Part shown: one piece after another, positions 52,136 through 57,397 of the stretch
How the letters are laid out: the number at the start of each line of letters is the position of its first letter
Numbering within the stretch: the first letter of the stretch is position 1
NCBI GenBank assembly: GCA_027623555.1
Contig: JAQBSZ010000002.1
Location: 62,001 to 126,000 of the forward strand
DNA: 64,000 bases
From: Pseudomonadota bacterium
GTDB taxonomy: Bacteria; Pseudomonadota; Gammaproteobacteria; Pseudomonadales; Pseudohongiellaceae
Direction of reading: 5' to 3'
Translations under genes and position numbers: made by a program
The notes under the pieces: model-generated
What the model was told of the DNA's origin: nothing
What the model saw: the letters and a program-made list of their open reading frames with translations, nothing else
Database searches by the model: none

Positions 52136-54286
52136 ATGAGAACAAGGTTTCCTGAAAATAGCGTAAATGCCGTGGCGATGGCTTTCACTGTCGTGGTACT
52201 GATTCTAGGTACTGCGGTTTCCAACGCACAACCCACGCTGGGCACCGAGAATGGTGAATGGCGGTATCTCGGTGGCAATATCGGTCATACTCGCTATTCA
52301 CCACTGGATCAGATCAACCGTCGCAACTTTGCAGACCTGGAAGTCGCCTGGATCTGGCGCAGCGATAATTTCGGACCCAACGTCGATTACTTTTCACGCT
52401 CTACCCCAATCTATGTCGACGGTGTCCTGTATACCGTGGCGACCCCGCGGCGCCAGGTGATCGCCATGGATCCGGCCACCGGGGAGATCATCTGGACCTT
52501 TCGTGAGCCTGATACCATCCGCCATCAGCGTTCACCCCGGCAGGCTTATGGCAAGGGTGTCGCCTACGCCGAGGTAAACGGACGCGGCGTGATTTACATT
52601 ACCACGCCCGGGTTTTTCCTCTGGGCACTGGATGCCAAGACGGGCCGCCCGCTGGAGGGTTGGGGTAAGCAATTTCCGGTCGGTGGATTTCCTGAGACGG
52701 GTGTAATCGACCTGATTCCGCAGTTGGTCGGTGATTGGGGACCCTGGCAGGACTATGTGGTCGCCGGCGGAACCTATGATGCGGATTACGGGATTCCCAG
52801 GGAACTGGGCATGGTTACCGCATCAGCCCCGCCCATCGTAGTCAATGGTGTCGTCATTGTCCTGGTCGGGCACCAGCCCAGCTACGGTCAGACCCGGATT
52901 GAGAATGTGCCGGGCGATATCATGGGTTTCGATGCGGCAACCGGTGAGTTCCTGTGGAAGTTTCATGCCATACCCCGGCCGGGTGAGGTAGGTCATGAAA
53001 CCTGGGAGAATGCTGCCTGGCGTTTCTCCGGCGATATCTCCACCTGGGCTCCTGCGTCTGCCGATCCGCAGCTGGGTCTGGTGTATCTGGTGACCAATGC
53101 CTCGACCGTGCAGTCCTACGCCGGGCACCGTCCGGGCGATAATCTGTTCGGTGGCAGCCTGCTGGCATTGGATGTGGCGACTGGTGAACGGCGCTGGCAT
53201 TTCCAGATTCATCGCAGCGACCAGTGGAACTATGACCTGCCGACCCCGCCCATGCTGATGGATCTCAACGTGGGCGGGCAGACGATTCCCGCCGTTATTC
53301 AGAACACCAAACAGGGGCTCATCTTCGCCTTCAATCGTGCGACTGGCGAACCGATCTGGCCGATTGAGGACAGGCCAGTCATTCAGACCGAGGTTCCCGG
53401 CAACTACACAGCGGCGATGCAACCCTTTCCCACCTGGCCCGAACCGGTAGATCGCATCATCCTCGATGGCATAACCGAGGAGTTTGTTATCGATTACACG
53501 CCGGAATTGAAAGAACAGGCCATGACGATACTCAACGGTTACCGGATTGGCGGGCTGTATGTGCCTGCGCTTCCCAATACTTACCAGGGCGAATACGTTA
53601 ACAATGTGGGCTGTCTGGGCGGCGGTAATATTATTCCCCATCCACCGGTTGCCGATCCCACCACCGGCATGATGTATAACTCCCATCGCCGCAACTGTTT
53701 CGCGCCGGGCTTCATGCAACCGACCAATGGCGTCGACCGGGACAACCCGAACTATCCCGAACCCGGTGAAGGGGGTGCCACACCCAATAGCACGCCGACC
53801 ACCGGTGTCACCGTGGCCGCCTGGTTACCCGGTGGTGGTGGGGGATTGCCCACGATCGATGGCCTGTCGGTTTACAAGCGCATGAACAACCAGCTTACTG
53901 CCTACCAGATGAATAGCGGTGAAAAGGTCTGGTCTTTGCCGGTTGGTGAGACACCCGCTGCGATACGCAATCACCCGCTGCTGGCCGGCGTCGATGTACC
54001 GAACAGCGGTGGCGAGGGTTGGTCAATCCAGATGGTGATGGGAGATATTCTGGTGCAGACCCGCGCTCTGTCTGAAGGGATGGCGCAGATGGAACCCGAT
54101 GCACCGCTCACATTGAATGCCCGCGATAAGATGACCGGAGAAGTTCTTGCCAGCGTACCGCTGCCCGCTCCGGGTCAGTACGGAATGATGACGTACCTGC
54201 ATCGCGGTCAGCAGTTCATCGTGGTCCAAGTGGGCAGTTCCCGAACGGATTACCCCGGGGCACTGGTGGCCTACCGGCTACCCTGA
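52136..54286 (+). CDS. PQQ-dependent dehydrogenase, glucose-dehydrogenase-like (periplasmic)
   Basis: 716 residues: a signal peptide (to AVSNA), then an eight-bladed quinoprotein propeller with repeated tryptophan-docking-type motifs. Typical parts are WRYLGGNIGHTRYSPLDQINRRNFADLEVAWIWRS, VIAMDPATGEIIWTF, LLALDVATGERRWHFQIHRSDQWNYDLPTPP and VPALPNTYQGEY. It oxidises an alcohol or sugar and passes electrons to the respiratory chain. No cytochrome c motif (CxxCH) is seen, so a separate acceptor is needed. The start at 52136 follows AGGGGAAAG. The UGSC-pair genes follow 57 nt later. Confidence 0.9.
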   Translation: MRTRFPENSVNAVAMAFTVVVLILGTAVSNAQPTLGTENGEWRYLGGNIGHTRYSPLDQINRRNFADLEVAWIWRSDNFGPNVDYFSRSTPIYVDGVLYTVATPRRQVIAMDPATGEIIWTFREPDTIRHQRSPRQAYGKGVAYAEVNGRGVIYITTPGFFLWALDAKTGRPLEGWGKQFPVGGFPETGVIDLIPQLVGDWGPWQDYVVAGGTYDADYGIPRELGMVTASAPPIVVNGVVIVLVGHQPSYGQTRIENVPGDIMGFDAATGEFLWKFHAIPRPGEVGHETWENAAWRFSGDISTWAPASADPQLGLVYLVTNASTVQSYAGHRPGDNLFGGSLLALDVATGERRWHFQIHRSDQWNYDLPTPPMLMDLNVGGQTIPAVIQNTKQGLIFAFNRATGEPIWPIEDRPVIQTEVPGNYTAAMQPFPTWPEPVDRIILDGITEEFVIDYTPELKEQAMTILNGYRIGGLYVPALPNTYQGEYVNNVGCLGGGNIIPHPPVADPTTGMMYNSHRRNCFAPGFMQPTNGVDRDNPNYPEPGEGGATPNSTPTTGVTVAAWLPGGGGGLPTIDGLSVYKRMNNQLTAYQMNSGEKVWSLPVGETPAAIRNHPLLAGVDVPNSGGEGWSIQMVMGDILVQTRALSEGMAQMEPDAPLTLNARDKMTGEVLASVPLPAPGQYGMMTYLHRGQQFIVVQVGSSRTDYPGALVAYRLP

Positions 54287-54343
54287 GCCGGCCTGGAGCA
54301 ATCCCTGCCAGTTACTGAGCAGGGATTGCTCCTGATTAAAACC

Positions 54344-55384
54344 ATGCATCTCCTTTCGAAATCCTACGAGTTGGCAGACCTGGCCGAATCACAGGAGTTT
54401 TATCACAGTCGTGGCTGGACCGATGGTCTGCCGATCGTGCCACCCACTCCCGAGGCGGTAACCGCCTGCCTCGAATGGGTATTGATGGCACCCGAGCATC
54501 TCATCGGTGTGGAACCGGTGCGAGAAAGACCGATTACTGCCGAAAAATTGGCAATCAATGCCGTCATGGCAGGATGCCTTCCCATGCATTTTCCTGCGGT
54601 CGTGGCGGCCTGGACTGCCCTGCTCCAACCCCAGTTCTTATTGCATGGCGCTACGGCGAGTACTGGTGGTTGCGCCATATTCGTGGTGTTAAACGGTCCG
54701 GTGCGAAAAGAGATCGGTGCACAGAGTGAGTTTGATGTACTTGGTAATAGTGACCGAAGCACCTCGGTTATAGGGCGGGCAATTCGGCTCGGGTTGATCA
54801 ATATTCTTAATGTGAGCCCTGGCGCTATTGACAGGTCGACACTTGGGCATCCTGGCAAGATCAGCTATTGTCTGGCAGAGGATGAAGAGGGTACGGCTTG
54901 GTCGTCACTGGCTAAGGAGCGAGGAATTCCAGATCAGGTCTCTGCAGTTACGGTTCTCGCTGCCGGAGCGCCACGACAGATCATGAATGAATGGACCACT
55001 GTGCCTGAAGAGATTCTGGATACCTATGCAGCAGAAATGCGCGGCAATATGTTGAATTATTCTATCTGGGCAGGTAACTATGCACTGGTGATACCGAAGC
55101 AGCATCGCGATCACCTGGAGGCCGCGGGCTGGAGTAAGGCCGATGTGGCGGAGTATATCCACCTCAAGGCACGGGTACTTCGCGCGGATTGGCGCAACGT
55201 TGGCAAGGCAGCCGTAGTTCGGGAGAAGGGTGAGCAGGAATATACGGCCTTACCTACAGCACAAGACTTGTTAGTCATCGCCGCAGGTGGCCCGGCCGGT
55301 GGTTTTGGCGCGGTTATTCCGCCATGGCTCGGCACCAAGAGCCGGGCCGTCAGCGTAGCGATTGGTGTCTGCGTCGATTGTTGA
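54344..55384 (+). CDS. Companion protein of the UGSC selenoprotein, unknown function
   Basis: 346 residues from the ATG at 54344 (a TTG at 54326 is the track start). It begins SYELADLAESQEFYHSRGWTDGLPIVPPTPE and contains EKLAINAVMAGCLPMHFPAVVAAWTALL, a conserved-looking core I know from proteins encoded beside UGSC genes. Later parts are GRAIRLGLINILNVSPGAIDRSTLGHPGKISYC and the C-terminus GVCVDC, with two Cys at the very end. It has no signal peptide or TM. Its stop is 42 nt before the selenoprotein start, so the two probably act together, perhaps as subunits of a selenium-dependent reductase; that is inference. Confidence 0.8.
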   Translation: MHLLSKSYELADLAESQEFYHSRGWTDGLPIVPPTPEAVTACLEWVLMAPEHLIGVEPVRERPITAEKLAINAVMAGCLPMHFPAVVAAWTALLQPQFLLHGATASTGGCAIFVVLNGPVRKEIGAQSEFDVLGNSDRSTSVIGRAIRLGLINILNVSPGAIDRSTLGHPGKISYCLAEDEEGTAWSSLAKERGIPDQVSAVTVLAAGAPRQIMNEWTTVPEEILDTYAAEMRGNMLNYSIWAGNYALVIPKQHRDHLEAAGWSKADVAEYIHLKARVLRADWRNVGKAAVVREKGEQEYTALPTAQDLLVIAAGGPAGGFGAVIPPWLGTKSRAVSVAIGVCVDC

Positions 55385-55426
55385 AGACAGAGAAAATTCA
55401 AGAAGAAGTCTTGGGGAGTAAATTGT

Positions 55427-55957
55427 TTGATTTATCGAGTCTTAGATCCTACGAGTGAAGAGTCTGGCAAGGTGACCGGGTTGGCGCGGCGGTTGATTAC
55501 ACTGCGGGGAACCAAGGTTGGGTTAATCTCCAATGGCAAGGAAGGGACAAACGATTTCTTCGCAATTGTTGAGCGTCTTCTCTATGAGCGATTTTCAGTC
55601 GCCGAGGTAATATCTCGGGTCAAGGCCAACTACAGTGCACCCGCCGCAGCCTCAATCATCGATGAGGTCAGAAACTGGAATGCGGTCATCACTGGTATCG
55701 GGGACTGAGGCAGCTGTTCGTCGTGCAGTTTGCATGACGCGATTATAGCGGAACGCCTGGGAATTCCGGCGCTGGCTGTGATGACTACGAAGTTTGTCAC
55801 TGCCGCTGATCTGATGGCAAAGGTGTTGGGACTATCCGGCTACAAATATTGCACCATTGCTCACCCGATCAGCAGTGCTACTACCGATGAGCTTCGTCAG
55901 CGAGCAGAAACCGTTATCGATATTCTTCCGCAGCTGATAGTCGAGCAAGGTGTGTAG
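55427..55957 (+). CDS. UGSC-family selenoprotein (in-frame UGA decoded as selenocysteine)
   Basis: The ORF track splits this gene into 55427-55708 and 55730-55957. Both are in one frame and separated by a single TGA (55706-55708). Reading through gives ...VITGIGD-U-GSCSSCSLHDAIIAERLGIPALAVMTTKFV..., with U-G-S-C at residue 94. That motif defines the UGSC selenoprotein family, which is often seen in marine metagenomes. The product is 176 residues and starts at a TTG with GGGGAG 7 nt upstream; the fold appears Rossmann-like. A SECIS-like hairpin follows the UGA. The Sec-Gly-Ser-Cys motif suggests a redox active site; the substrate is unknown. It is not a pseudogene. Confidence 0.9.
55719..55739 (+). 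promoter_or_regulatory. Bacterial SECIS element for selenocysteine insertion
   Basis: CGTCGTGCA (55719-55727), loop GTT, then TGCATGACG (55731-55739) pair over 9 bp with one G-U wobble. The stem starts 10 nt after the TGA (ends 55708), and the loop begins with GU about 20 nt after it, matching the geometry known for bacterial SECIS hairpins bound by SelB. The element is inside the coding sequence. Confidence 0.85.
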
Positions 55958-55994
55958 TCAGGAAACCAGAGGCTCCCTGGAACCAATCGCTGCC

Positions 55995-56729
55995 ATGACT
56001 AAACCGATTCTAATCATCCAGCTCCGCCCGGAAGACGCAACGTCGGATGACGAATTCGAGTCCATCAAGTTCTATGCTGGTCTGCAAGATTCAGATGTCA
56101 TGCGGATTCGGGCTGAACAAGCGGGATTGCCAGAACTGGACCTGGACGCGTGTGCCGCCATCATCGTCGGAGGCTCACCGTTCAACGTCAGCGAACCAGA
56201 AGATCAGAAGAGCACTATCCAGAAACAGCTTGAAGCGGACTTCTTTGCATTGTTTGACGCCATAGTCGCACGCGATTTCCCCTTCCTGGGATGTTGTTCC
56301 GGAAACGGCCTGTTGGGCCGCTACTGTGGTGCAGTTATTTCCCGAAAATATGGCGAGCCTGTTGGTGGCGCAGACATCAAGCTAACCGAGGCAGGCAGAA
56401 AAGACCCGCTATTAAAAGGACTGCCGGCATCGTTCCGGGTGCTGCTTGGTCACAAAGAGGCCTGCGATAGCTTGCCCCCGGGATGCGTGTTGCTGGCCTC
56501 AAACGATTCCTGCCCGATACAGATGTTCCGCCTGAAGAACAACATCTATGCAACCCAGTTTCATCCAGAGGGAGATGCCGAAGGATTTATCGTCCGAATT
56601 CATACCTACAAACATTACGGGTATTTTCCATCTGAGTCTGCCCAGCGACTCATCGAGGCGGTTGAGCATGAAAAGGTGCCGGAAGCGCAATCAATCCTGA
56701 AGCGGTTTGCCGATCGCTATCGATCTTGA
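55995..56729 (+). CDS. Class I glutamine amidotransferase (GuaA-like)
   Basis: 244 residues from the ATG at 55995 (track start 55950 overlaps the selenoprotein end). The triad is visible: Cys in FLGCCSGNGLLG (the nucleophile elbow, here with a double Cys) and His-Glu in ATQFHPEGD. It resembles stand-alone GMP-synthase-like GATases of the YfeJ type, which use glutamine or glutamyl substrates. It lies 37 nt after the selenoprotein gene on the same strand, so they may be co-transcribed. Substrate unknown. Confidence 0.87.
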   Translation: MTKPILIIQLRPEDATSDDEFESIKFYAGLQDSDVMRIRAEQAGLPELDLDACAAIIVGGSPFNVSEPEDQKSTIQKQLEADFFALFDAIVARDFPFLGCCSGNGLLGRYCGAVISRKYGEPVGGADIKLTEAGRKDPLLKGLPASFRVLLGHKEACDSLPPGCVLLASNDSCPIQMFRLKNNIYATQFHPEGDAEGFIVRIHTYKHYGYFPSESAQRLIEAVEHEKVPEAQSILKRFADRYRS

Positions 56730-56791: not shown

Positions 56792-57397
56792 CTAAGTAGA
56801 ACGCTGGATCGCGATGAGATCAGCGAGAGATTTTGCGTCAAGTTTGTTCATCAAATTGGAGCGATGAAACTCAACAGTACTCACTACGATTGAGAGTTCA
56901 TTGGAAATCATTTTGTTCGTATACCCCAGCGCCAGTAAATCAAGCACCTGTTTCTCTCTGGCAGTCAAGTCATCCAGTTTTTTGTTGCGCTGCATTTTTT
57001 GCTGCTGGGCATCTGCAAGAATTTTGTTCTCTGCGATGGCGGCTTTAATGCATTCATACAACTCCGCGGCATTGAAAGGTTTTTGCAGAAATTCGTGTGC
57101 ACCGGACTTGATGGCTTTGACAATATGTCTGAATTCACTGTCACCGCTCATGAATACAATGGGAATTAGTTTATTGAGATTCGATAATTTTTCCTGCACA
57201 TCTAATCCGGACATGCCGCCTGGCATGTGATTGTCCAACAGCACGCAGGCAGATTCAGGATAGTCATCTACCGAGAGGAACTGTTCACCAGATTCGAAGA
57301 TTTCAGTATCGAATCCTTCGCGCACGAGTAGCTTGGTAGTTACTTCGGCTTGTTCGAGATTGTCGTCTATTATGTAGACTAGAGGTCTTGTATCCAT
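56792..57397 (-). CDS. LuxR/FixJ-family response regulator (orphan)
   Basis: 201 residues: receiver domain (residues 5-120) with the phospho-acceptor in CVLLDNHMPGGMSG and LQKPF, and a LuxR-type HTH (LTAREKQVLDLLALGYTNKMISNELSIVVSTVEFHRSNLMNKL). The FixJ/TtrR-like arrangement suggests control by a histidine kinase, but none is encoded nearby. It is convergent with the GATase gene and divergent from the second PQQ dehydrogenase gene, so it may regulate the latter. Confidence 0.9.
   Translation of the reverse strand: MDTRPLVYIIDDNLEQAEVTTKLLVREGFDTEIFESGEQFLSVDDYPESACVLLDNHMPGGMSGLDVQEKLSNLNKLIPIVFMSGDSEFRHIVKAIKSGAHEFLQKPFNAAELYECIKAAIAENKILADAQQQKMQRNKKLDDLTAREKQVLDLLALGYTNKMISNELSIVVSTVEFHRSNLMNKLDAKSLADLIAIQRST

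Follow-up and report, generated by a model that had tools for sequence, protein, structure and literature searches.

Two adjacent genes in a 64,000-nucleotide stretch of bacterial DNA (the window) encode a protein of an undescribed family, here called the companion, and a UGSC selenoprotein, and it was found that the two form a genuine evolutionary unit, kept across bacteria and, as cysteine forms, in salt-loving archaea. Since the pairing is near-obligate, selenocysteine (Sec) is decoded, the active-site half of the UGSC protein is homologous to the Sec domain of the D-proline reductase subunit PrdB and relatives are coupled to thioredoxin (Trx), the two gene products probably constitute the subunits of one dithiol-driven selenium-dependent reductase, whose partner subunit is unrelated to that of proline and glycine reductase.

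The pair belongs to a cluster of three same-strand genes at positions 54344-56729, separated by gaps of 42 and 37 nt and preceded at 57 nt by a PQQ dehydrogenase-like quinoprotein gene (52136..54286, + strand); these values agree exactly with a preliminary description of the region. The companion gene (ATG 54344 to the stop at 55384, +) codes for 346 amino acids with the C-terminus GVCVDC, of which residues 343-346 (55370..55381, +) make up a C-terminal CVDC dithiol tail; CxDC is present in 98-99% of the window-type homologues. The UGSC gene, running from TTG 55427 to TAG 55957 (+), encodes 176 residues, and its in-frame UGA codon at 55706-55708 (+) corresponds to Sec94 in the context GIGDUGSCSSC, while the codon of Cys97, the putative resolving residue of the UxxC motif, stands at 55715-55717 (+). 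The third gene (ATG 55995..56729, +) encodes a stand-alone class I glutamine amidotransferase (GATase) of the PRK07567 type with 244 residues. A LuxR-type response regulator gene at 56792-57397 (-) converges on the GATase gene and is kept beside the cluster in the locus L009.

It was confirmed that the middle gene encodes a genuine UGSC selenoprotein, the UGA being decoded as Sec. The protein is a member of PF24696 (E=1.1e-47, 162.8 bits against a cut-off of 25) and scores above the curated cut-off of NF041046 (129.9, cut-off 125). The same UGA is present in all UGSC genes adjoining close companion homologues, and in 40 aligned UGSC sequences the U/C position, G95, S96 and C97 are invariant. 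About 19 nt past the UGA a SECIS-like hairpin with a GU-type loop was detected in 109 of 111 Sec-containing UGSC genes versus 6 of 14 Cys homologues; in the window it lies within the gene at 55719..55739 (+) and has 9 bp and a GUU loop. The stem cells of this element were paired in 95.5%, a value which fell to 4-54% if the stem was slid by 1-3 nt, and compensatory changes from C-G to G-C were found in 8 sequences. The genome encodes tRNA-Sec (anticodon TCA), selB and selA, and so the in-frame UGA, the SECIS element and the Sec machinery which characterize the family occur together here. The call of a UGSC selenoprotein in the preliminary description was thus borne out by the in-frame UGA, the conserved SECIS and the presence of selA, selB and tRNA-Sec. 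The reading of the UGA as a true stop in a decayed gene was ruled out by the homologues, the SECIS and the Sec machinery.

Two further observations concern the annotation and the coding constraints of these genes. In UGSC genes with an SSWS motif (e.g. in L112, L160 and L163) the motif Cys is replaced by Trp through a change of UGC to UGG, accompanied by a compensatory change on the opposite side of the SECIS stem; RNA and protein constraints coincide on the same codons in these genes. On a plasmid of Paracoccus ferrooxidans (L128) the annotation splits a UGSC gene with UGA into two hypothetical ORFs; the gene is located about 4 kb from selB of the same plasmid.

UGSC proteins rank with the most frequent selenoproteins of aquatic metagenomes, and the family, with which the protein of the window agrees in the UGSC motif, the SECIS and the length, has been described in metagenome surveys (PMC2398784, PMC9312934); in the literature consulted neither a function nor an obligate partner was found described. 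What is added here is the partner of the UGSC protein, the haloarchaeal Cys forms, the coupling to thioredoxin and the relation to PrdB.

Among 80 companion relatives with 67-80% identity, a UGSC gene was found in the retrieved locus or just past the end of the match in 77, nearly always directly downstream of the companion and mostly at a distance of 13-180 nt. When all loci were taken together, 143 of 152 companion domains had a UGSC gene within 1.5 kb on the same strand, and in the same genus (36 loci with a window-type companion, the window excluded) UGSC was the next gene in 31, and 34 had it at a distance of up to 4 kb. In an even sample of 399 genomes of the phylum the companion and UGSC shared exactly the same 6 genomes, where they were always adjacent; with the window's own genome left out, the chance of 5 identical picks of 398 would be about 1e-11 if the two were independent, a figure that ignores shared ancestry. 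The companion came first in 112 and UGSC first in 22 of 134 simple pairs, therefore the linkage survives rearrangement. The pairwise distances of the two proteins correlate as well (rho 0.87 overall and 0.73 in distant pairs). Variovorax boronicumulans carries a UGSC-companion fusion in one ORF with a CGSC motif, a similar fusion, interrupted in the record, is present in Neorhizobium galegae, and haloarchaea possess the pair as Cys forms. The genome of the window itself contains a second UGSC selenoprotein (G000:C66:30783-32342; L092, L093), located downstream of a companion fused to a thioredoxin-like domain and followed by a thiolase gene. The loci of the 80 relatives, the identical genome sets, the fusions and the parallel divergence very strongly uphold the earlier proposal that the first gene encodes a partner of UGSC selenoproteins. 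A domain fused to UGSC and named 'Unknown_1' in PMC2398784 may be the companion.

Some loci (L112, L159-L168) show another architecture, where UGSC is followed by two tandem, diverged companions, often together with a thioredoxin reductase (TrxR)-like CAxC flavoprotein; this is possibly a heteromeric version of the pair.

Sequence and fold searches of the companion against Pfam, NCBIfam and PDB returned nothing significant, the best fold match being fumarate hydratase with a TM of 0.2. Its close homologues have conserved cysteines at C42, C78, C110, C176, C343 and C346, of which C78 (96%) and C176 (86%) persist across distant homologues; the CVDC tail was modelled with low pLDDT. N72, C78, R145, C176 and E179 are conserved in the companion, and the resemblance of R145, E179, N72 and C78 to an active site is one of the points which might speak for the companion being the real, non-redox enzyme (e.g. 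a lyase, racemase or isomerase), with UGSC mainly as a binding or regulatory subunit in which Sec is needed in only some members. The same idea could be supported by fused UGSC-like/companion proteins of Sporomusa (L120:5320-7041) and Vibrio (L129:4386-6068), which keep the companion core and have a UGSC-like domain that has lost the U/C of the motif (LGDMGTS and LADMGTS, respectively). Nevertheless Sec or Cys and the UxxC motif are retained in nearly all other members, at the cost of the Sec machinery, and thioredoxin partners recur, so we regard a purely non-redox companion enzyme as quite improbable. As the UGSC-like domain of the two fusions lacks U/C, not every member of the superfamily carries out a redox reaction. 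Both fusions are encoded near aconitase X and DUF126 genes, and in Vibrio an enolase-like gene follows directly.

The third gene and the upstream quinoprotein gene behave differently from the pair. The GATase is a clear member of its family (NF005743/PRK07567 above the cut-off, E=3.1e-93) and of class I, with a match to PF00117 and the Cys and His-Glu elements in LGCCSGNG and QFHPEG; the quinoprotein matches the full profile of PF01011 (1-595) and has a signal-peptide-like N-terminus. The preliminary description had suggested that the UGSC protein, the companion, the GATase and the PQQ dehydrogenase form one pathway with a common substrate, and the tight same-strand spacing is in accordance with this, as is the joint presence of the GATase and PQQ genes on the flanks of the pair in the window, L009, L016 and L017. 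Nevertheless, within the genus only 4 of 37 genomes show the pair flanked by both genes; the GATase and the immediately upstream quinoprotein occur in the same 3 of the 36 other same-genus loci and in 3 of the 80 relatives, and beside the pair outside that genus neither was found in the more distant loci examined. The genome (4.5 Mb) gave 97 PF01011 matches corresponding to about 60 distinct PQQ dehydrogenase-type genes, an unusually large set for its size, therefore a quinoprotein gene is expected nearby fairly often. Moreover, a strong inverted repeat (54295..54332, +) in the gap between the PQQ gene and the companion gene folds into a hairpin of -29.9 kcal/mol (z -5.75) which is unique in the window and might mark a transcript end, with no clear T-run; in L016 the same place is occupied by a hairpin of different sequence, with TTATTTT after it. 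The matches of promoter and terminator scans were below the number expected by chance. The signal-peptide-like N-terminus of the quinoprotein would place its substrate probably in the periplasm, whereas the thioredoxin-linked Sec enzyme, having none, is probably cytoplasmic. In the 80 close loci the neighbours flanking the pair were found on either strand about equally often.

Because of the rare flanking, the many PQQ genes and the hairpin, a shared four-gene pathway is not supported, and we consider it very unlikely. The operon proposed earlier is consequently to be divided: the companion-UGSC unit stands, and the GATase and the PQQ gene do not belong to it beyond the local context. A survey of UGSC neighbourhoods, suggested in the preliminary description, showed the companion to recur beside UGSC and the GATase not to, the latter being the outcome which that description had itself named as speaking against its model. 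On present evidence both the GATase and the quinoprotein count as local additions, which are not required to share a substrate with the pair, and the PRK07567 family, although the third gene is a clear member of it, is not a conserved partner of UGSC.

The nature of the UGSC protein was approached through its predicted structure and through profile comparison. In the AF2 model (pLDDT 90) beta strands and alpha helices alternate in a Rossmann/flavodoxin-like order, and the UxxC motif opens the helix that follows the third strand. Foldseek searches with this model retrieved only generic flavodoxin-like/Rossmann, REC and GTPase folds with TM of about 0.5 or less; neither the strand and helix order of the predicted structure nor these matches correspond to a Trx fold. 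The predicted fold thus differs from the Trx-like one suggested for UGSC in 2008 (PMC2398784).

By profile alignment (hhalign), 138 UGSC domains matched eleven PrdB/GrdB-like proteins, namely PrdB of Terrisporobacter, Ligilactobacillus, Enterococcus and Acetoanaerobium together with Cys forms from Pseudomonadota, with a probability of 89.9% (P 1.7e-6) and with the UxxC motifs in register. The E-x-x-G-I-P segment after UxxC and the final 'P-[IM]-[SG]' segment were aligned as well. While the score was 48.4, none of 60 alignments with shuffled columns exceeded 17.8, reversed controls also being run, and four single PrdB sequences scored 35.6-42.1, versus at most 23.3 among 106 unrelated neighbour proteins. 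The relation becomes clear only with the deep alignment, since an alignment restricted to close UGSC homologues matched PrdB weakly (probability 16%), and it is limited to the active-site half. PF07355 was not among the families listed when 40 UGSC members were scanned with hmmscan at E<=10, and it had no match in the window's own genome; we do not assign UGSC to PF07355, the protein being below the gathering threshold. Judging from these profiles, homology links the active-site half of UGSC with the Sec domain of PrdB, the D-proline reductase protein of the GrdB family. The companion was rejected as a relative of PrdA (probability 0.1%, with a PrdA template of three sequences only); no pyruvoyl-forming Cys of the kind that marks a PrdA/GrdE-type proprotein was identified in it.

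These results bear on the view, assumed by earlier surveys, that UGSC would be a common thiol oxidoreductase or peroxidase of thioredoxin-like type, serving antioxidant defence, with the companion as its dedicated substrate protein. UxxC is indeed the usual redox motif, and the pair is accompanied by Trx genes and domains. Against this stand the Rossmann/flavodoxin-like order of the confidently modelled structure with its low Foldseek scores, the fact that PrdB was the sole profile similarity found, and the separate Trx domain of many pairs, which suggests that UGSC is a client and not itself a thioredoxin; we therefore hold the thioredoxin-like explanation to be unlikely.

The recurrent partner of the pair is the thioredoxin system, and three arrangements were recognized. 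In the first, to which the window belongs, the companion ends in CxDC, and a trx gene was found in the flanks of none of 79 loci. In the second, which makes up one clade, the companion lacks the tail and is fused to a Trx domain, whose CxxC is intact in 19 of 19 cases. In the third a thioredoxin reductase or TrxR-like CAxC protein adjoins the pair, as in the trxB-trxA-companion-UGSC operon of Arthrobacter and the companion-UGSC-trxB order of Roseovarius; in Variovorax trxB is near the pair. The dithiol tail and a dedicated Trx module are almost mutually exclusive (Fisher p 9e-16 on raw counts), but this complementarity is phylogenetically clustered and amounts to 3-4 independent comparisons, therefore it is only a hint. 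The driving system of glycine reductase consists of NADPH, TrxR and Trx, and for PrdC a reset of PrdB via its C-terminal CxxU has been proposed (PMC3091704); cleavage of a Se-C adduct is thought to be common to proline and glycine reductase (PMC10298544). For a dithiol-driven reductive C-N cleavage the Trx linkage in the relatives is no more than suggestive.

On the basis of these comparisons a catalytic scheme can be proposed for the two-subunit reductase. The companion and the UGSC protein would touch each other, and the companion might hold the substrate beside Sec94, for which N72, C78, R145, C176 and E179 are candidate residues. The selenolate of Sec94 could then attack the substrate, which might be a small organic acid with a C-X bond to be broken, after the example of proline and glycine reductase, or another electrophile, and Cys97 of UxxC would resolve the adduct to a selenenylsulfide. 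In the window type this selenenylsulfide might be reset by the CxDC tail, comparable to the CxxU of PrdC, and in the other types by the fused Trx domain or by separate thioredoxin/TrxR-like proteins.

Gene neighbourhoods did not indicate the substrate through any single dominating family, the neighbours varying by clade. An enoyl-CoA hydratase is encoded near 13 window-type loci, and a gamma-glutamyltransferase/gamma-glutamyltranspeptidase gene is located upstream of the pair on the opposite strand in 11 (L027, L047, L057, L062, L069 and six others). ComA-like and DUF6282 proteins are encoded near other pairs; the phosphosulfolactate synthase (ComA)-like genes are those of L117 and L118, a haloarchaeon and an actinobacterium. 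CoA transferases, enoyl-CoA hydratases, TRAP/TTT transporters and LysR regulators are found among the neighbours of relatives. These are hints at organic-acid catabolism which name no compound.

A more far-reaching reading, which we put forward tentatively and consider possible rather than probable, is that companion-UGSC pairs constitute a widespread class of selenoenzymes beyond the Stickland anaerobes, which would cleave a small organic acid reductively in the manner of proline/glycine reductase, using a partner subunit of a new kind and any of three interchangeable sources of electrons (CxDC tail, fused thioredoxin or separate thioredoxin system). Should the relation to PrdB extend to function, reductive cleavage based on selenium would not be restricted to anaerobes that ferment amino acids. 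The function of UGSC becomes testable, since the protein has a constant partner, is related to a selenoenzyme whose mechanism has been studied, and has a predicted source of electrons.

Compared with the PrdB/GrdB proteins (PF07355), the pair is alike in its Sec-bearing UxxC subdomain, which aligns in register, in the presence of a second subunit and in the proposed reset by a dithiol chain. It differs in that UGSC scores under the threshold of PF07355 and the companion shows no relation to PrdA, nor was a pyruvoyl partner identified; furthermore, companion-UGSC pairs are found mostly in genomes of Pseudomonadota and not only in Stickland anaerobes. PrdC has a C-terminal two-residue redox tail that could reset a selenenylsulfide of the PrdB type, as the CxDC tail of the companion might also do; however, PrdC is an NADH/FMN/Fe-S protein, whereas the companion matches no such family.
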